This document shows, piece by piece, positions 49,336 to 58,713 of a stretch of DNA of 64,000 bases. A program made the translations under genes and the position numbers. The notes beneath the pieces were generated by a model. The model was not told the DNA's origin. It saw nothing but the letters and a program-made list of their open reading frames with translations, and made no database searches. Within the stretch, counting starts at the first letter, position 1. Each line of letters starts with the position of its first letter. Origin of the DNA: Candidatus Accumulibacter phosphatis (GTDB taxonomy: Bacteria; Pseudomonadota; Gammaproteobacteria; Burkholderiales; Rhodocyclaceae); assembly GCF_012939955.1 (NCBI RefSeq), contig NZ_SPMY01000022.1, positions 1-64,000 on the forward strand, written 5' to 3'.

Positions 49336-50266
49336 CGACGGCTAGCTCCTGGCCGTCTTCGTCAAGCAGCGTCAGGCGCCTGTCGGCCGCAGCGACGATC
49401 CGGCCGAAGCGCCAGAGCGGCAGATCAAGCTCGGCGGCCAGCGCGGCAAGCTCGCGCCGTCTTGCCGGCGCTGCCGAGAAAACAAGCTCGTAGTCGTCAC
49501 CGCCGGCCAGCTGGCATTGGCGCGCGAACGCCGGGTCGGCGCCGGCCGGTCTCGATGGCAGCTGCCCCACCTGGACTTCCGCGGCAACCGCAGAGCGTTC
49601 AAGGATATGCCCGAGATCCGCGAGCAAGCCATCCGAGACATCGATGGCCGCGTTCGCCAGGCGACGCGAGCGCAATTCCAGACCCAGTTCGACGCGCGGC
49701 CACGGTTGCTGCAAGGCCGCCAGACAGCGTTTGGCGAGCCCCTCCGCGAGCTCAGTCCGTCCCTGCAAATGGGCCAGCCCCAGGGCCGCCAGGCCCGGCC
49801 AGCCGGAAACCCAGAGGTCGTCACCGGGCAAGGCCCGATCGCGACGAAGCGCCTCGCCGGCAGGCAGCTCACCGAGCACAGTGAAGCACAGATTGAGCGG
49901 GCCGCGCGTCGTATCGCCGCCGACCAGATCAACGCCGTAGCGACTGGCGCATGCAAAGACGCCTTCCGAAAACGACGCCAGCCATTCCGCGCACGCTTCC
50001 GGCAGGCTGCCCGCAAGTAGCGCCCAGCGAGGCTTGGCGCCCATCGCGGCGAGGTCGGAGAGGTTGACCGCGAGAGCTTTCCAGCCGAGCTGGCGGGGGT
50101 CGGTATCGGGCAGAAAATGACGGCCAGCAACCAGCATGTCGGTGCTGATCGCCAGTTCGCAACCTGCCGACGGCACGAGCAGCGCGCAATCGTCACCGGG
50201 GCCGAGAACCGCCTGCGGCGTCGGCCTGGAAAAATACGTTCGGATCAGTTCAAACTCGCTGGGCAT
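49307..50266 (-). CDS. thiL: Thiamine-monophosphate kinase ThiL
   Basis: ThiL phosphorylates thiamine monophosphate to the active pyrophosphate. The 319-residue product has the typical GPGDDCALL, STDMLVAGRHF, GGDTTRGPLN and AIDVSDGLLADLGH motifs for Mg-ATP and substrate binding. The ATG at 50266 follows GGAGGAGGGG. It lies 56 bases after nusB. Confidence 0.94.
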   Translation of the reverse strand: MPSEFELIRTYFSRPTPQAVLGPGDDCALLVPSAGCELAISTDMLVAGRHFLPDTDPRQLGWKALAVNLSDLAAMGAKPRWALLAGSLPEACAEWLASFSEGVFACASRYGVDLVGGDTTRGPLNLCFTVLGELPAGEALRRDRALPGDDLWVSGWPGLAALGLAHLQGRTELAEGLAKRCLAALQQPWPRVELGLELRSRRLANAAIDVSDGLLADLGHILERSAVAAEVQVGQLPSRPAGADPAFARQCQLAGGDDYELVFSAAPARRRELAALAAELDLPLWRFGRIVAAADRRLTLLDEDGQELAVDGQGFDHFA

Positions 50267-50322
50267 CACCGCCCCTCCTCCTTGCCAATGCACGACTTGC
50301 CGGGCTTGCTCGGCGACGCTGC

Positions 50323-50811
50323 TCAGCGTGCTTTGGCGCGTGCCGCGCGCTTGGCTTCGACCTCGGCCGGACGCAATCTGGCAGCCAGCTTGTCGAGTAC
50401 GCCGTTGACGTACTTGTGGCCGTCGGTACCACCGTAAGCCTTGGCCAGTTCGATTGACTCGTTGATGATCACCCGATAGGGGGTCTGCGGATAATTACCC
50501 AGCTCGAAAGCTCCCGCCAGCAGGACGCTGGCCTCGATCGGTGACAGCTCGTCAAAGGGCCGGTCCAGATACACCTGTAACTGCTCCTGCAGCACCGAAC
50601 GCTGGACGAGAACACCGCGCAGCAACTTGACGAAGAACTCACGGTCAGCCTTGTCGAAGCCTTCGACGTCGCCGAGGTGCGCTTCGATTGCTGCTTCGTC
50701 GTTGCCACTCAGCTGCCACTGGTAAAGCCCCTGCAGGGCGAACTCGCGGGCCCGGCGACGCGGCGACCTGACGGCACTGGCGTTGGCCTTGTTCGGCAAA
50801 CCCCCGGCCAT
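50323..50811 (-). CDS. nusB: Transcription antitermination factor NusB
   Basis: NusB with NusE (S10) assembles antitermination complexes on rRNA operons. The 162-residue protein shows RRRAREFALQGLYQWQLSG and the conserved C-terminal PYRVIINESIELAKAYGGTDGHKYVNGVLD. Its ATG overlaps the ribH stop by one base (TGATG). A basic Lys/Arg/Ala tail follows the domain. Confidence 0.95.
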   Translation of the reverse strand: MAGGLPNKANASAVRSPRRRAREFALQGLYQWQLSGNDEAAIEAHLGDVEGFDKADREFFVKLLRGVLVQRSVLQEQLQVYLDRPFDELSPIEASVLLAGAFELGNYPQTPYRVIINESIELAKAYGGTDGHKYVNGVLDKLAARLRPAEVEAKRAARAKAR

Positions 50812-51326
50812 CACGAGCGCTCCCCGAGTGCCACCAGCAGATTGGCCATCTCGACCGCCACCTGTGCGCAGTCGGCGCCTTTCTGGTGCATGCGGGCCAA
50901 CGCCTGATCGTCGTCTTCGCAGGTCAGAATTCCGTTGGCGATGGGCACGCCGCTGTCGAGCTGCACTTCCATCACTCCCCGGCTCGAGTCGTTGGCGACG
51001 ATCTCGAAATGATAGGTTTCGCCGCGGATGACCGCGCCGAGTGCGACCAGCGCGTCGAAACGCTCGCTTTGTGCCATCGTCTGCAGGGCCAGGGGGATCT
51101 CCAGAGCGCCCGGGACGGTGGTCAGCGTAATGCGCGCTGCGTCGACGCCGAGGCGCTGCAACTCACTGAGGCAGGCACTGAGCAGGCCTTCACCAAGTTC
51201 CGGGCTGAAGCGGCTCATGACGATACCGATCGCCAGCCCTTCGCCGTCCAGCGAAGCCGCACATTCGTCGATGGCCTCGTCGCGACGCACGGGCGCGGTG
51301 TTGGTAGGCGTTGTCTGGATGCTCAT
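50811..51326 (-). CDS. ribH: 6,7-dimethyl-8-ribityllumazine synthase
   Basis: Lumazine synthase condenses the ribB product with the pyrimidine intermediate. The 171-residue product has [18 protein letters not shown], the active-site [21 protein letters not shown] and [15 protein letters not shown]. It overlaps ribBX by one base at its start and nusB at its end. Confidence 0.94.
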
Positions 51327-52459
51327 CAGAGTCCTTCAAGGTCGGTCAGTTTGGCAATATGCCCAGTGACTTCGAGATCGAAGCCGGTCATGCTCGGCAT
51401 CCGCCGCGGACTGGCCAGCAATTTCATCTTGCCGACCCCCAGATCACGCAGGATCTGCGCCCCGATACCGTAGATGCGCGGGTCCCAACGGGCAGCCGGA
51501 CGTTTGCTCGCGGCTGGCTCACGGAGCATGGCGAGAATATCCTGACCGCTTTCGGGACGGTGCAGCAAGACGATCACCCCCGCCCTCGCCCGCGCCAACG
51601 CCGCTTGTGCGACGTCGAGCGAAAAAGTATGCCGCTCCCCACCCGGGTCAAGGAAATCGACGACCGAGAGCGGTTCATGCACCCGCACCAGCGTCTCCTG
51701 ATCGGGGCAGATCTCGCCCTTGGTGAGCACCAGATGCACCTCGTTCGAGGTGCAATCGGTATACGCGTGCAGCATGAACTCGCCGTGCGCTGACTGTACC
51801 GCTTTCGACAGCGTGCGCTCGACCAGGGTCTCGTGCTGGCTGCGGTAATGAATCAGATCGGCGATGGTGCCGATCTTGAGGCCATGCTGGCGAGCGAAGT
51901 CGACCAGGTCGTGCAGACGGGCCATGCTGCCATCCTCGTTGAGGATCTCGCAAATCACCGCCGCTGGTTCGAGCCCGGCGAGCAGCGCCAGATCACAGCC
52001 AGCTTCCGTATGCCCGGCACGCACCAGGACACCGCCCGCGCGCGCCATGATCGGAAAGACATGCCCGGGCTGCACGATGTCGGTCGGCTCGGCGTTACGC
52101 GCCACCGCCGCCTGGATGGTCAGCGCGCGGTCCTGCGCCGAGATCCCCGTGGTCACCCCTTCGGCGGCTTCGATTGAAACCGTGAACGCCGTACTGTACG
52201 GACTCTTGTTGTCGCGCGCCATCTGCGTCAGGCCCAGTTGCCCGCAACGCGCTTCGGTCAACGTCAGGCAAATCAGGCCACGCCCGAAACGGGCCATGAA
52301 GTTGATCGCTTCCGGCGTAACATGCTCGGCGGCGAGAATCAAATCGCCTTCGTTCTCGCGGTCTTCCTCGTCGACCAGAACGACCATCCGTCCGGCACGC
52401 ATTTCGACAATGATTTCTTCGATCGGTGATACATCGCCAGAAGTGCTCTGTGGTGCCAT
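51326..52459 (-). CDS. ribBX: 3,4-dihydroxy-2-butanone-4-phosphate synthase with degenerate GTP cyclohydrolase II domain
   Basis: The 377-residue product begins with an intact RibB domain (residues ~10-210: [35 protein letters not shown]), which makes the four-carbon unit of riboflavin. The C-terminal domain is RibA-like, but the three zinc-binding cysteines of GTP cyclohydrolase II are missing; the region reads [21 protein letters not shown] where the C-x-C should be. Such hybrids (RibBX) are known to lack cyclohydrolase activity, so a separate ribA is expected elsewhere. No FMN riboswitch motif is seen upstream. Confidence 0.88.
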
Positions 52460-52866
52460 TCTTTACATCCTCCACGCCGGGCTTGCGCGTAAATAGGCCC
52501 ACGCCAACTGGCGACAGGCCATCGCCTGCTAAGACGGGCAGGTTCCTCGGACGCCGCACCGCTCCAGCTGCGTCTGGAAGGGGCAAAGCTCGCCTGGCAA
52601 ACGCCGCCCCGGCCAGCGTCGCTCCCGAGCCCGGCATTCTCTCAGTTTCCGGGCTTGACCGCTATGCAGGGATGAGGCAGATGCTGCTATTGCGGCTATT
52701 CGTCGACCAACGCCCTGCCCGGCGATCGCCCAACAAGTCAATTATTCGTTTTATCATGGTCGACAGCGACAGCCCAGGGCAGTCGGCTGATCAGTTGAAC
52801 GGTAACTGGGTGTGCGTCGGCACATTCCGACGAGGGTGAATGCCAAGAGGGCGAAGGATCAGTTCA
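52460..52866. other. Divergent intergenic region
   Basis: About 400 bases between ribBX and the receiver-domain gene. An AT-rich island at 52736-52760 could hold a promoter for either gene (TATCAT at 52752-52757 on the plus strand), without a clear -35. Small inverted repeats occur near 52505-52545. No RFN riboswitch core was found. Confidence 0.45.
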
Positions 52867-53703
52867 ATGTCAATCAATGAGAGCTTGCTGTTGATCGCCG
52901 CGGGAGTCGGCGTGGCCTTTTTCGCATGGCGCTCCTTCAATACACGTCGCTCAGCGAACGAGCAAGCGGAACGGACGGCAATTCAAGACGCTGCCCGTGC
53001 AGAGGCCCAGCGCAAGGCCGCCGAGGAAGCCGCTCGTGCCGAAGCCGAACGCAAGGCCGCAGAAGAAGCCGCTCGTGCCGAAGTCGAGCGCAAGGTCGCC
53101 AGGGAGGCGGCGCAGGCCGAGGCCGACCGCCAGGCCGTTGAGAAAGCCCAGCGCCTGGAAGATGAGGAACGGCTGGCGGTCGACCAGGCCATTGCTCGAG
53201 AAACCGAGCGCCAGGCAAGCGAGGAAAATGCCCGCCGAGCGGCTGAACGGAAAGCTGCCGAGGACGCACGGCAGCTAGCCGCGACCCGCACCGCGACTGT
53301 CGCGCCGGCAAAAGCGAAGACGCCAGAAGAAACAGTGGTCATGGTCGCAGACGATTCCAAGGTGGTCCGCGTCAAGACCGGCCGGCTGTTGGGCGCGCAG
53401 CACTATCAAGTGGTAATGGCTGAAGACGGACTGGACGCCGCCCGGCAAATCGAGAGAGCCTTACCCGATGTACTGATTACCGACGTTGATATGCCCGGCA
53501 TGAGCGGCTTGCAGCTGACACGGCAGCTGCGTGCCCATGCGGCGACCGCAGGGCTGCCGATCATCATGGTCACTTCGGACAGTGAGCAGTTGCGCGGTGA
53601 AGCACACGCCGCGGGCGTAAACGTGCTGCTCGGCAAACCCTACCCCGAGGCGCAACTGCTCGCCCATATTCAGAGCTTGCTTAGCGGACAGAGCTGCACT
53701 TGA
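52867..53703 (+). CDS. Membrane-anchored coiled-coil response regulator
   Basis: The 278-residue protein has an N-terminal membrane helix (about residues 8-23), then ~115 residues of Ala/Glu/Arg-rich heptad-like sequence (repeats such as AAEEAARAEAERK). A complete CheY-like receiver domain follows at about 158-275: acidic pair in MVADDSKVV, phospho-acceptor Asp206 in ITDVDMPG, Thr/Ser in VTSDS, Lys in GKPYP. There is no output domain, so signalling must be by protein contact, perhaps at the membrane or cell pole. The ATG at 52867 follows AAGGA. No histidine kinase is near. Confidence 0.8.
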   Translation: MSINESLLLIAAGVGVAFFAWRSFNTRRSANEQAERTAIQDAARAEAQRKAAEEAARAEAERKAAEEAARAEVERKVAREAAQAEADRQAVEKAQRLEDEERLAVDQAIARETERQASEENARRAAERKAAEDARQLAATRTATVAPAKAKTPEETVVMVADDSKVVRVKTGRLLGAQHYQVVMAEDGLDAARQIERALPDVLITDVDMPGMSGLQLTRQLRAHAATAGLPIIMVTSDSEQLRGEAHAAGVNVLLGKPYPEAQLLAHIQSLLSGQSCT

Positions 53704-53729
53704 GGCAGCACGCAACGAGCAGCGGCGAG

Positions 53730-54182
53730 ATGGAGAGGGAGAGCACAGCAAGGTCCGAACAAGCGCCGACGCACGCGGAACGAAAACCCGCGCTGGCCGA
53801 GTTCGTCATCGTCTGCCTGTGCGCTGAGTGGTGCGGCGTTTGCCGCGAGTACCAGGACGGCTTCGCGAAGCTTGCCCGCCAGTTTCCGGGAGCCGGATTT
53901 CACTGGCTGGATATCGAGGAACACGCCGACGATCTGGGCGACATTGACGTGGACAACTTCCCAACGCTGCTCATCAAGCGCCGGGAGCTGGTCCTTTTCT
54001 ACGGGACGATGCTACCCACAGCAAGTCACCTGAAACGGACAATCGAAGCCTTCCTCGAACAAAGCATTGAAGAAAGTGAGGAATACGCTTTCTCGAACGT
54101 CGAGCGGCACGGCTGGCAGGACGACCAGGACCTGCGCCGACTCAACGCAACGAGCCTGGGCGAACTCTGCCCACAGGTCTAG
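53730..54182 (+). CDS. Thioredoxin-fold protein with WCGVC motif
   Basis: The ~150-residue product has CLCAEWCGVCREYQDGF (thioredoxin-type C-x-x-C), WLDIEEHADDLGDIDVDNFPTLLI with the cis-Pro, and a helical C-terminal extension of about 40 residues. No signal peptide is seen, so it is probably a cytoplasmic reductant or chaperone. The start is uncertain: ATG at 53730, or a TTG at 53700 overlapping the receiver gene. Immediate proximity suggests co-transcription with the receiver gene. Confidence 0.72.
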   Translation: MERESTARSEQAPTHAERKPALAEFVIVCLCAEWCGVCREYQDGFAKLARQFPGAGFHWLDIEEHADDLGDIDVDNFPTLLIKRRELVLFYGTMLPTASHLKRTIEAFLEQSIEESEEYAFSNVERHGWQDDQDLRRLNATSLGELCPQV

Positions 54183-54204
54183 CCAACGCGACGTTGTAGC
54201 GCAC

Positions 54205-55119
54205 CTACAGGGCAACCAGCACGCCCTGCTCGTCGCGTAGCGTACCGACGCGAATCAGGTCGCGAACCAGGCGCTGCGCCAGCGCCTGGTTACTGAGATT
54301 GAGATAGCGCGTGTTCACGCTCTGGCAGAAACTCAGGCCGGCCAGAAAATCAGGCAGATCGGCACGTGGCAGTTGCCGCCTTTCCAGCAAGGCAAAAGCA
54401 AGGATCACCTTGAGCGCGTGCCAGGCGAGCAGATCGATATCCTGTTCGAAAGCCGCCAGCCGCCGATAGGCCCGCTCAAAAGCATCGTCGACCTCGATGA
54501 ACGGCGCGCCATGACCGGGAATCACCAGCTCGACCGGCAGGCGAGCCAGCACGTCGAGCGTTTCACGGGCCGCCTTCAGGCCGCCGGCACCTTCCGGATG
54601 GCCGAGAATCTCCGAGAAGATGACCCCGAAGCCGTTCCGCCACAGGGCGTCGCCGGAGATCAGGATGCGCCGCTCGGGGTTGTGAAAAGCAAGCGCGTCC
54701 ATATCGTGGCCGGGAACCGCAATGGCCCGCCAGTTGAGACCGCCGAGCTCGCTTTCATCGCCAGCGGCAATCGTCGCGTCGTGGCGAAAACGCGTAGCGG
54801 ACTGGCCAAGCGGCGATAGCAAGAGCGCCTCTTCGTCCCACTCGGCAATCGTCGCATCAATGCCGTGCGGAACAATGACCTGGCAGCCGAAAGCCGCGCT
54901 CACCGCCGCGTTGCCGCCGATATGGTCGGAATGCGAATGGGTGTTCAGCAAGCGGGTCAGCCGCCGACCCGCTAGTGCGTGTTCGAGCAAGGCGACGGTC
55001 TGCTGGGCCTGCGTGACGTAGCCGCTGTCGATCAAGGCCGCCTGCTCGCCTTCAAGAAAGACGATATTGTTCGACGACAACCAGCCGCGCTCGAGAACCA
55101 GCAGGTTCTCGGGCAGCAT
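54205..55119 (-). CDS. Metallo-beta-lactamase-fold hydrolase
   Basis: The 304-residue protein has the metal-binding THSHSDHIGG (His-x-His-x-Asp-His), a further His in VPGHDMDALAFHN, Asp in LISGDALWRNGFG and the distal GHG in VIPGHGAPF. This is the binuclear-metal MBL hydrolase pattern. A C-terminal ~80-residue helical region follows. The substrate (thioester, phosphodiester or lactone) is unknown. The ATG lies within the first unit of the tandem repeat and overlaps a TGA in the form TGATG. It is the last gene of the liu/DUF1289 transcription unit. Confidence 0.8.
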   Translation of the reverse strand: MLPENLLVLERGWLSSNNIVFLEGEQAALIDSGYVTQAQQTVALLEHALAGRRLTRLLNTHSHSDHIGGNAAVSAAFGCQVIVPHGIDATIAEWDEEALLLSPLGQSATRFRHDATIAAGDESELGGLNWRAIAVPGHDMDALAFHNPERRILISGDALWRNGFGVIFSEILGHPEGAGGLKAARETLDVLARLPVELVIPGHGAPFIEVDDAFERAYRRLAAFEQDIDLLAWHALKVILAFALLERRQLPRADLPDFLAGLSFCQSVNTRYLNLSNQALAQRLVRDLIRVGTLRDEQGVLVAL

Positions 55120-55243
55120 CAGGGACCGTCCGGAGAATCGTCGGGAGACATCAGCGACTCCCCGGAGGATCGTCGGGCGACATCAGGACTCACCCGGAGA
55201 AGCGCCGGCAGCATCAGTGCTTGCCTGGAGAATCGCCGTCGGG
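55117..55243. repeat. Four tandem copies of a ~32-bp unit at a gene junction
   Basis: Imperfect copies occupy 55117-55148, 55149-55180, 55181-55211 and 55212-55243. Each begins with CATCAG or CATCAGG (plus strand) and contains a CCGGAGAATCGTCGGG-like core with substitutions. On the minus strand every copy ends in TGATG. The outermost copies supply the stop codon of the DUF1289 gene and the start codon of the MBL-fold gene. Confidence 0.85.
55119..55214 (-). CDS. Possible 31-codon coupling ORF made by the tandem repeat
   Basis: A frame of 31 codons begins at the ATG overlapping the DUF1289 stop (TGATG at 55216-55212) and ends with a TGA overlapping the MBL start (TGATG at 55121-55117). Its peptide (MLPALLRVSPDVARR and on) has no recognisable family. 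It could simply allow ribosomes to pass from one gene to the next. Expression is not shown by anything in the sequence. Confidence 0.3.
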   Translation of the reverse strand: MLPALLRVSPDVARRSSGESLMSPDDSPDGP

Positions 55244-55405
55244 GCCCGCATCGACGACCCGCAGCGGACGCGCTTCCTCGGCGACGATCTCCTGCGAAGC
55301 CTCGGATACCGGCTCGGGCGGGCGTCCACAGCCAAGGCAGTAACCCGAATCGGGGTCGAACATACACACACCGACGCAGAGATAGTCGTCTTCAGTCGTG
55401 CTCAT
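55214..55405 (-). CDS. DUF1289 small cysteine protein
   Basis: The 63-residue product has the DUF1289 signature CVGVCMFDPDSGYCLGCGR (C-x3-C-x8-C-x2-C), which suggests a zinc or Fe-S site; the function is unknown. It is the second of two DUF1289 genes in tandem. Its C-terminal codons (DGDSPGKH) lie inside the fourth copy of the tandem repeat. Confidence 0.8.
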   Translation of the reverse strand: MSTTEDDYLCVGVCMFDPDSGYCLGCGRPPEPVSEASQEIVAEEARPLRVVDAGPDGDSPGKH

Positions 55406-55444
55406 TCGCGATGACCCTGCTCACGTAACCCACTGCCGCCCGGT

Positions 55445-55714
55445 CTATTCTTCACGCGCTCGCTCCTCGCCTCTGCTGCTGCCCGTCGGCTCACAGTCGT
55501 CACGGAAGTCCTCGCCTGCCGCACAGGCACTGTGCTCGATGCGGCGACGCTCGACAGCGACCAGTATGTTCAGGCGCTGCTCGTCCCGCGTTCGGCTCCA
55601 GACGGCGATCTCCGCAATGGTCCGGAAGCAGCCGATGCAGAAACCGCCGTCGTCGTCCATTTTGCAGACGTTGATGCACGGCGAAGCGACGCTTGGCGTC
55701 GGCGGTTGACTCAC
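55445..55714 (-). CDS. DUF1289 family protein
   Basis: The 89-residue product (GTG at 55714 after GGGGAGGAG) has CINVCKMDDDGGFCIGCFR with the same four-cysteine spacing as its neighbour, then WSRTRDEQRLNILVAVERRR, the usual DUF1289 continuation (often WxxxSxxEKxxVL). It lies 16 bases after liuE, in the same transcription unit. The family is frequently found near housekeeping metabolic genes; its role is unknown. Confidence 0.8.
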   Translation of the reverse strand: MSQPPTPSVASPCINVCKMDDDGGFCIGCFRTIAEIAVWSRTRDEQRLNILVAVERRRIEHSACAAGEDFRDDCEPTGSSRGEERAREE

Positions 55715-55730
55715 GACAATCTCCTCCCCA

Positions 55731-56675
55731 TCAAAGACCTTGCTCCTGCTTTTCGCCAGCCCGCTGGCGGGCGAGCAGCGCGCGCGCCGCTTTCGACGCA
55801 GATTCGCGGCCCAGGTGACTCGAGATGAACTGGCCGGCAGCGAGCAACTTGTCGATATCGACACCGCTCTCGATGGCCAAGCCCTGCAGCAGATAAACGA
55901 CGTCTTCGGTAGCCACGTTACCGCTCGCGCCGGCCGCATACGGACACCCACCGAGCCCGGCGATCGAGCTGTCGAAGACCGCCATGCCCATTTCCAGCGA
56001 AGCGTAGATATTGGCGATCGCCATCCCGTAGGTGTCGTGGTAATGGCCCGCCAGGCGCTTCATCGGCACCACTGCCGCACACGCCGCCAGCATTCTCTGC
56101 ACCGACGCCGGCGTCCCGGCACCGATGGTATCGCCGAGCGAAACCTCGTAGCAACCCATGTCGAGCAGCTGCCGCGCGACCGCGGCAACACGCTGCGGAT
56201 CAACGGCGCCTTCGTAGGGGCAGGCGACCACGCATGACACGTAAGCACGCACGCGTATCTCGAGCGCGCTGGCGGTGTCGACGACGGCAGCGAAACGCTT
56301 CAGACTTTCGGCAATGCTGCAGTTGATGTTCTTCTGCGAGAATGACTCCGAAGCGGCACCGAAAATTGCAACTTCCTGCGCCCCCGCTTCTACCGCCGCG
56401 TCGAAACCCTTGAGGTTGGGCGTCAGAACCGGGTACGCCACCTGCAGCCGGCGTCGCGGACTCGCCAAGACCGCGCGCAGGACCTCGGCGTTGTCTGCCA
56501 TTTGCGGCACCCATTTCGGCGACACGAACGAGGTCGCCTCGATGGCCGGCAGGCCGGCGTCGGCGAGACGCTCGATGAGTTCGACCTTGATCGCCGCCGG
56601 GACGATCTGCGCCTCGTTCTGCAGACCATCGCGGGGACCGACTTCGACCAGTTTGACCTGTGCCGGCAGCGCCAT
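55731..56675 (-). CDS. liuE: Hydroxymethylglutaryl-CoA lyase
   Basis: This lyase splits HMG-CoA into acetyl-CoA and acetoacetate, the last step of leucine breakdown. The 314-residue protein shows [23 protein letters not shown] and the catalytic-Cys loop [19 protein letters not shown]. The ATG at 56675 is one base from the liuD stop. Confidence 0.93.
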
Positions 56676-56676
56676 C

Positions 56677-58713
56677 TCAATTCTCCGCGGCAAAATCGAG
56701 CAGTTCGGCGCCATCGGCCACCTGATCGCCGGCGGCGTAGCAGAAGGCCTTGACGATACCGTTCTTCGGCGCCGTAATCGTATGTTCCATCTTCATCGCT
56801 TCGAGAATCAGCAGCGCGGCGCCCTTTTCCACCTGCTGCCCGACCGCCGCCAGCAAGGCCACCACCTTGCCCGGCATCGGTGCCGTCAAACCGCCACCCT
56901 GTGTTCCGCCGGCTTCAACCAGATGCAGGGGATCGTCGCGCAGAATGACGTAAGTGGTGCCATTGAGGAAAACGTGCCGTTTCTGTTCCTGCTTCTCATT
57001 GACGGCGACGACGCTGGCCACCAGGCGACGGTCGTCCAGCTCGACCGCCAGCTGGCCGGCAAAGCGACCGCTTTCGAGAACCCGGCCGCGCGCCAGCACC
57101 GACTCGCCAGCCAGCGCCAGGCGCCAGCCGTCGGCCTCGTAAGCAACGGCCACTTCGTACACCGAATCGCCGCTGCGATAGGTTAGCGTGCGTTGCGACT
57201 GGATGTTCAAGCGCCAGCCGTCGTGCGAACTCCACGGCGACCAGGGGTCGCCCGAATGGCTGGCCCTGTTGAGCGCCGCCGCCTGCTCGCGGAGCAGACC
57301 GGCGACCGCGGCGACAAAGAAGACATTTCGCGGTGGTTCGCTGCGCGCCGGGAACAGGAACTCGCGGCTACGCTCGATCAGGCCGGTGTCGAGATCGGCG
57401 TCGGCGAAAGCCGGGCAGACCACCAGGCGTGACAGGAAAGTGACGTTGGTACTGACGCCGACGATGCGATAGTCGGCCAGCGCCTGCCACATGCGCGCCA
57501 GAGCCGCGTCGCGGTCGACATCCCAGACAACGAGCTTGGCGATCATCGGATCGTAGTAAGACGAGATTTCGTCGCCTTGTTCGATGCCCGTATCGACGCG
57601 CACATTGAGGCTCTCGGCCGGTGGCGAGAGATGCACCAGTCGCCCGGTTGACGGCAGAAAGTCCTGCTCCGGATTCTCCGCATAGATACGCGCCTCGAGC
57701 GCGTGTCCACGGATTTCCAGTTGCTCCTGGCGCAGCGGCAGCGGCTCGCCGCTGGCGACGCGCAACTGCCACTCGACAAGGTCCTGCCCGGAAATCATTT
57801 CGGTCACCGGATGCTCGACCTGCAAGCGGGTGTTCATTTCCATGAAATAGAAACTGCCGTCGCGCACGAAAGTGTCACTGGCGATGAACTCGACGGTACC
57901 GGCACCGACGTAGCCGACCGCGCGCGCGGCGTCGACCGCCGCCTTGCCCATTGCTGCACGCCGTGCCGCGCTCATTCCCGGAGCTGGCGCTTCTTCGAGG
58001 ACTTTCTGGTGCCGGCGCTGCACCGAGCAGTCGCGTTCGAAGAGATGAACGTAATTACCCTGCGTGTCGGCGAAAATCTGGAATTCGATATGCCGCGAAC
58101 GGCTCAGATACTTCTCGATGAGCACCTTGTCGTCGCCGAAGGATGAGGCTGCCTCACGCTGGCACGAAGCCAGCGCCGCGGCAAAATCCTCGCCGCGCTC
58201 GACCAGACGCATCCCCTTGCCACCACCGCCGGCCGCGGCCTTGATCAGCACCGGATAGCCGATCGCCTCGGCCTCGCGCTGCAAACGCCCCGGTGCCTGG
58301 TCGTCGCCATGATAGCCCGGCGTCACCGGAACGCCGGCAGCGCTCATGATCGCCTTGGCGGCGGACTTCGAACCCATGGCGCGGATCGCTGCCGCCGGTG
58401 GGCCAATGAAGACAATCCCCGCCGCAGCACAGGCGTCGGCAAAGACGTCGTTCTCGGACAAAAAGCCGTAGCCCGGATGAACCGCCTGCGCAGCGGTACG
58501 ACGGGCCGCATCAAGAATGCGCTCGCCGACCAGATACGACTCGCGGGCGGCAGCCGGACCGATGCACACCGCCTCGTCGGCAAGGCGCACGTGGCGGGCG
58601 TTGGCGTCGGCCTCCGAGTAGACGGCGACGCTGCGCACGCCCAGACGACGAGCGGTCTTGATCACTCGGCAGGCGATCTCGCCGCGATTGGCAATCAGAA
58701 TCTTGGTAAACAT
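56677..58713 (-). CDS. liuD: 3-methylcrotonyl-CoA carboxylase, biotin carboxylase/carrier subunit
   Basis: The 678-residue alpha subunit carries a biotin carboxylase domain ([47 protein letters not shown]) and a C-terminal biotin carrier domain with the biotinylated Lys in [10 protein letters not shown]. With liuB it carboxylates 3-methylcrotonyl-CoA. The beta partner lies in the same cluster, so specificity for methylcrotonyl-CoA is well supported. The gap to liuC is 124 bases. Confidence 0.92.

Follow-up and report, generated by a model that had tools for sequence, protein, structure and literature searches.

Receivers that consist of a single domain are generally assumed to be soluble. In the Myxococcus proteins FrzS and AglZ the receiver comes first in the protein, and neither is known to have a membrane anchor. 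TolA has an N-in anchor and a rod that lies in the periplasm. Silversmith and colleagues are said to have reported in 2016 that the receiver of ChpA, the chemosensory kinase of the Pil-Chp type IV pilus system, exchanges phosphate with the HPt domains of ChpA. A 2025 review describes ChpA as carrying several phosphotransfer domains and an in-cis receiver that is essential for twitching (PMC12632253). FrzS has lost the phospho-acceptor Asp of its receiver and kept the switch Tyr (PMC1974792), and EpsW, a Myxococcus single-domain regulator, is proposed to bind the phosphoglycosyl transferase EpsZ directly (PMC12802240).

A receiver of a different build is encoded in the window analysed here, a stretch of 64,000 nucleotides from Candidatus Accumulibacter phosphatis. 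Searches of an open-licence library, for this build or for receivers of Accumulibacter, listed no title or abstract describing such an architecture. The features of the locus are as follows.

52867..53703, + strand: membrane-anchored receiver gene (membrane helix, rod, linker and receiver); ORF, Pfam Response_reg, one ortholog in each of 28/28 genus genomes
52873..53280, + strand: predicted continuous alpha-helix, residues 3-138 (membrane helix and rod); AlphaFold2, DSSP H3-138
52882..52932, + strand: N-terminal membrane helix, about residues 6-22, with positive residues after it; hydropathy peak and flanking charge, predicted N-out/C-in
52996..53148, + strand: 39-bp (13-residue) tandem repeat array, the variable-length rod; TRF, 3.9 copies
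53134..53193, + strand: conserved neck of the rod, residues 90-109, AVEKAQRLEDEERLAVDQAI; pattern in 26/28 genus rows, overlapping the last bases of the TRF array
53281..53334, + strand: flexible linker, residues 139-156; pLDDT < 50 at 141-149, no secondary structure at 139-152
53335..53682, + strand: receiver domain, residues 157-272, with D162, D163, D206, T236 and K257 intact; Pfam, model and column counts
53482..53484, + strand: codon of the phospho-acceptor Asp206; D in 35/35 family rows, 55/55 ChpA rows and 21/21 other rows of the own genome (PilH twice)
53700..54182, + strand: thioredoxin-like gene (CGVC), next downstream; Pfam PF00085, an optional neighbour and not part of the mechanism

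Gene, distribution and neighbours

The open reading frame runs from ATG 52867, preceded by GAAGGA, to TGA 53703 and encodes a protein of 278 amino acids. A longer in-frame start at ATG 52840 would give 287 amino acids, adding nine residues and keeping the membrane helix. An earlier note on this DNA, made from the letters alone, had proposed a membrane-anchored receiver with no output domain, and had named a start beyond the hydrophobic segment as the finding that would leave a soluble protein. ATG 52867 lies ahead of that segment, and a similar start followed by the hydrophobic N-terminal helix is found again across the genus copies. Response_reg is the sole Pfam family in the 278 residues at E <= 0.1. 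The membrane-anchored receiver architecture at 52867-53703 is confirmed as real, genus-wide and unusual. An RNA element or a promoter at the locus was rejected, as an Rfam search of 50000-57000 gave zero RNA element matches and a scan of 52400-54400 found no sigma-70-type site.

Each of the 28 Candidatus Accumulibacter genomes, the own genome included, has one tethered-type receiver at E <= 1e-35, and the hydrophobic helix and rod are present in all 15 intact copies, so that the same architecture, which the earlier note had suggested looking for, recurs throughout the genus. The nearest relative is Ca. A. meliphilus UW-LDO-IC (95% in the best segment). Among 150 genomes drawn from the family, with 16 first-look candidates scored per genome, 77 matched at E <= 1e-25; in the four that belong to the genus the match covered both rod and receiver, and in the remaining 73 it started only near residue 120. 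Two records named Propionivibrio also have the protein (L042:4001-4978 and L048:2864-4441). Their gene surroundings are different and the neck pattern is absent from both; transfer or misnamed records are possible explanations.

A few Burkholderiales (L053, L054, L055 and L057, with L059 cut) have a more distantly related protein that includes a membrane helix and differs in its linker. L054, L055, L056 and L057 all end in ALACA or SLACA at the C-terminus and, as far as they can be read, have a linker that is first Ala-rich and then Pro-rich. A search of 399 order genomes with L055 as query (five first-look candidates scored per genome) gave matches at E <= 1e-25 in 170 of them. Among the matches listed, none but the window gene combined a short frame with coverage of most of the query; most of the others listed lay in ChpA-like frames of at least 1500 residues, and about a dozen were shorter. 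A seemingly stand-alone relative in one genome (G405, a frame of 300 residues) was rejected as the end of a frame-broken ChpA gene. On these searches, the tethered architecture looks rare outside the genus.

A thioredoxin-like gene directly follows the receiver gene, as the earlier note had observed. In 18/28 genus genomes it lies on the same strand just downstream of the receiver, at estimated distances of -69 to 274 bases. It was rejected as a constant partner, as the remaining 10 genomes keep the receiver and gave no thioredoxin match at E <= 1e-12. No thioredoxin gene was found within about 4 kb on the downstream side in the two Propionivibrio records, and in three genomes outside the genus (G007, G156 and G004) tblastn found no similar receiver beside thioredoxin. 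From its pattern of occurrence, the thioredoxin gene is best described as an old neighbour and not a needed partner. One genome (G462, contigs C149 and C192) has a second thioredoxin match on another contig, and in the assembly JAKOZI two loci (L058 and L045) have the receiver beside thioredoxin, one of them cut at a contig end; both cases would reflect strain mixture or duplication.

Membrane helix, rod and linker

The C-terminal flank of the membrane helix is more positive than the N-terminal flank in 17/18 readable rows, with a tie in the remaining one. Since the charge bias is positive on the C side, the receiver is predicted to lie in the cytoplasm (N-out/C-in), where phosphorylation of a receiver has to take place. 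The Ala/Glu/Arg-rich rod between membrane helix and linker had been likened to TolA in the earlier note, and its composition would suit a TolA-like trans-envelope protein with a periplasmic rod. The predicted C-in topology is the opposite of that of TolA, and together with the need of the receiver for the cytoplasm makes such a protein highly improbable.

TRF finds a 39-bp (13-residue) unit in 3.9 copies with 73% match at 52996-53148; the arrays of the seven relatives analysed range from 10 to 22.8 copies. In all 15 intact genus copies the hydrophobic helix is followed by a rod whose autocorrelation is best at 13; a period of 13 fitted best in 27 of the 30 rows, with one row at 26 and two short remnants at 27. 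Measured as the segment between membrane helix and receiver in the 15 genus copies whose 5' part is free of breaks and gaps, the rod is 131, 136, 160, 215, 216, 218, 222, 252, 285, 305, 308, 328, 340, 351 or 403 residues long. The nearest relative (L038; an array of 10 copies with 93% match) has a rod of 222 residues versus 131 in the window, a difference of 91, or 7 x 13. A neck of about 20 residues ahead of the receiver departs from the repeat; two genus rows outside the 26 with the pattern have a near match to it.

The suggestion that the coil may vary in length between strains is upheld only as a difference between species genomes, in which lengths run from 131 to 403 residues, and assembly errors may account for some of it. 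Thirteen of the 28 genus copies gave no usable rod length: eight start at a contig end inside the rod, four have N runs ahead of the receiver, and one (G452) is without an in-frame membrane helix. Examples of the first two kinds, 12/28 copies in all, are L149, L150, L151, L160, L175 and L185. The repeat evidently breaks assemblies and, because of these contig starts and N runs, other arrays may be collapsed, that of the window included. These breaks, and the possibly collapsed short array of the window, could be read as signs of a repeat-driven artefact or a decaying gene, a reading that is barely credible for a receiver found once in each of 28/28 genomes with invariant catalytic residues.

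The rod had been described as a long coiled coil. A coiled coil with a hydrophobic core is disfavoured by two measures. In the best heptad register of the window rod only 19% of a/d positions are ILVMFY and 56% are polar, by a simple measure of our own used without a known coiled coil as control; a heptad-like hydrophobic stripe was therefore not found. Opposite charges exceed like charges at i+4 (24 versus 3 pairs, z 4.4, 0/2000 shuffles as high) and at i+3 (17 versus 4 pairs, 8/2000 shuffles as high), and such an excess at both spacings is the pattern of an E-R/K single alpha-helix. The hydrophobic period was 4.31 to 4.50 in 25/25 rows measured (4.385 in the window), near 13/3 and not 3.5 or 3.6, although the 13-residue repetition by itself accounts for some of this; of the 30 rows, four with X and one without a matched receiver pattern were skipped. 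Given the charge pattern and the weak heptad measure, the rod probably resembles a single alpha-helix more closely than a coiled coil; dimerisation through the neck is still conceivable.

An AlphaFold2 model built from 11 sequences (mean pLDDT 84.4, pTM 0.46) has one helix over residues 3-138, a low-confidence linker and a receiver fold. By block, pLDDT was 72-78 over residues 1-40, 85-92 over 41-130 and 67 over 131-140. The modelled continuous helix is weak evidence for the rod, because such a composition tends to give a continuous helix anyway. At the rise of 0.15 nm per residue of an alpha-helix, the rods, if helical, would span roughly 20 to 60 nm.

The receiver and its relation to ChpA

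Response_reg (PF00072) matches residues 158-269 over the whole profile (1-111 of 111; 80.6 bits, cut-off 30.2; E 1.2e-22), and the best 50 matches listed in a Foldseek search of the PDB were receiver structures. The acidic pair D162 and D163, the phospho-acceptor D206, T236 and K257 are invariant in 35/35 family rows, so that the acceptor is intact and the earlier description of a complete receiver stands.

A search of the own genome ranks the ChpA receiver (96.5 bits) directly below the gene itself, and the next match scores 51.8 bits. Among 300 order genomes drawn, with at most 14 first-look candidates scored per genome, 28/28 non-self matches at E <= 1e-30 lay in frames of 1611-2315 amino acids, with 47-53% identity to the tethered receiver. 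All 54 ChpA-like loci tested (26 from the family draw and 28 from the order draw) match the own ChpA over CheA core and receiver. The tethered protein itself contains Response_reg alone, and the HPt repeats, CheA core and CheW domain of a ChpA kinase were not found in it.

A tree placed the tethered receivers (35 rows, SH-aLRT 92) beside the ChpA receivers (55 rows, 82), with the union at SH-aLRT 94 and PilG, PilH and 18 other receivers of the own genome outside it; the tree came from a quick search with midpoint root on 111 rows (from 116 names) and 121 columns, the ChpA rows had been picked by similarity, and 48/107 inner branches were open and several long. For the receivers of the own genome, 49 matches gave 30 loci; from the 29 others and the PilG and PilH of L116, 22 rows were kept after removal of short, cut or duplicate rows. 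One of these 22 is the ChpA receiver and PilH occurs twice, leaving 20 distinct others. L059, cut by a contig end, was omitted from the tree, and L056 lacks a readable 5' part.

The tethered and ChpA rows differ at the switch position and in the first helix. Residue 254, at the position of CheY Tyr106, is V, L, I or M in 35/35 family rows (30 Accumulibacter-type and 5 Burkholderiales) and Y or F in 55/55 ChpA receivers and in 19/21 other own rows (18/20 distinct); the aromatic of a canonical CheY-type switch is thus missing from the tethered receivers. At residue 208, two positions beyond the Asp, 35/35 tethered receivers have D and 55/55 ChpA receivers have E. In the first helix, tethered and ChpA receivers have K/R versus L/V/M at 165, V/M/I versus T at 166, V/I versus K at 169 and K versus I/V/A at 170, with no letter in common at any of the four, which we take from known complexes to be positions facing the kinase or HPt domain. 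D238 occurs in 30/30 Accumulibacter-type rows and K170 in 35/35. By these column counts, the phosphorylation site is kept under constraint, the usual switch element lost and the partner-facing helix rewritten.

The earlier note had offered a tethered phospho-switch or scaffold. The anchor and the intact acceptor fit that idea, while a CheY-type switch seems less likely than a sink or relay because the aromatic is absent in 35/35 rows. A true tethered switch, whose phosphorylated receiver directly binds a membrane or envelope machine such as the pilus base or polysaccharide synthesis, would draw on the membrane anchor, the lack of an output domain and the precedent of EpsW (PMC12802240); the family-specific D238 and K170 imply a conserved partner, and a receiver that has lost the aromatic may still have an output surface. 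We consider such a switch rather unlikely, the aromatic position being aliphatic throughout and no constant membrane-machine neighbour gene being present in the loci looked at. A mainly structural rod or scaffold, whose receiver serves to place the protein (for example at a pole) with phosphorylation in a secondary role, as in FrzS or AglZ, would suit the long predicted helix joined to the receiver and the lost aromatic, and FrzS gives it a precedent (PMC1974792). It is nevertheless improbable, as the acceptor residues are invariant in 35/35 rows, the reverse of FrzS.

The pil-chp cluster of the own genome lies on contig C48 (L116:5246-14227), where a ChpA of 1805 amino acids is encoded behind pilG, pilH, pilI and pilJ, names that, like chpA, we presume from gene order and content; of this cluster, the receivers and the ChpA core entered the analysis. 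The tethered receiver gene is not adjacent to pil-chp in the own genome. A ChpA core is present in 27/28 genus genomes, including 23/23 with completeness of 90% or more and contamination of 5% or less; the genome G441 (88% complete) carries the tethered receiver and gave no ChpA match. As both are core genes of the genus, this co-occurrence is weak evidence. None of the 53 HATPase matches in the genome, 52 of them over the cut-off, is on the contig of the window (C24), and the neighbours therefore do not name a kinase. Nine HPt matches were found in the genome, four of them in ChpA. With this many candidate kinases and a first-helix face unlike that of ChpA receivers, the receiver might accept phosphate from another, unlinked kinase; we regard this too as rather unlikely, since the lineage of ChpA is the closest by a wide margin in bits in the own genome.

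Proposed role and comparison with known systems

The reading we favour, if tentatively and with less than even confidence, is that of an orphan, inner-membrane-tethered single-domain response regulator whose role would be that of a local phospho-acceptor, either sink or relay, with ChpA as a possible partner. It builds on the anchor, rod, linker, complete phosphorylation site, grouping with ChpA receivers and loss of the switch aromatic, as read from the sequence. A probably stiff single alpha-helix would tether the receiver to the inner membrane and hold it in the cytoplasm, separated from its anchor by 20 to 60 nm of helix, where it would take phosphate from a membrane-bound kinase array or an HPt domain. 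The first candidate partner would be the Pil-Chp kinase ChpA, because its own receiver is of the same lineage. Since the first-helix residues differ from those of ChpA receivers, ChpA is a lead only, and the partner may have changed. The tethered receiver might then be a local phospho-acceptor, for example setting the amount of phosphate that reaches PilG and PilH, and not a CheY-like switch with an effector of its own, and the number of repeats would set how far the leash extends. A further-reaching version, which we put forward as speculative and unlikely, is a genus-wide phospho-buffer, in which a stray ChpA-type receiver is kept at the membrane by a single alpha-helix that lengthens or shortens in evolution through gain or loss of 13-residue units, the repeat tuning the reach and local concentration of the phosphate sink for surface-sensing signalling.

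A membrane-leashed receiver with a phosphorylation site but without the aromatic switch would offer a natural test of a pure sink or relay receiver, and its variable 13-residue repeat a natural length series (131 to 403 residues) for how tether length affects signalling. Accumulibacter is important for phosphorus removal in wastewater, and the tethered receiver points to a Pil-Chp system in this genus.

With TolA domain II and other Ala/Glu/Lys-rich rods, the protein shares composition and a long helix. The predicted topology is opposite to the one known for TolA, and the window rod has an exact 13-residue unit and no Pfam match except Response_reg. CheY, PilG, PilH and EpsW likewise have a receiver without an output domain, but they are soluble, and the switch position is still a Tyr in PilG and PilH of the own genome, where the membrane-anchored receiver is aliphatic. 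FrzS and AglZ share a receiver fused to a long helical segment with no output domain; FrzS is without the Asp and with the Tyr (PMC1974792), the reverse of the tethered receiver. The nearest lineage is that of the C-terminal receiver of ChpA/PilL, with which the tethered receiver shares the acidic pair, the Asp, the Thr (54/55) and the Lys. ChpA/PilL receivers keep the switch aromatic (55/55) and E at D+2, whereas the tethered receiver has lost the aromatic (35/35), has D at D+2 and a different first helix, and stands apart from the kinase, on a membrane rod.
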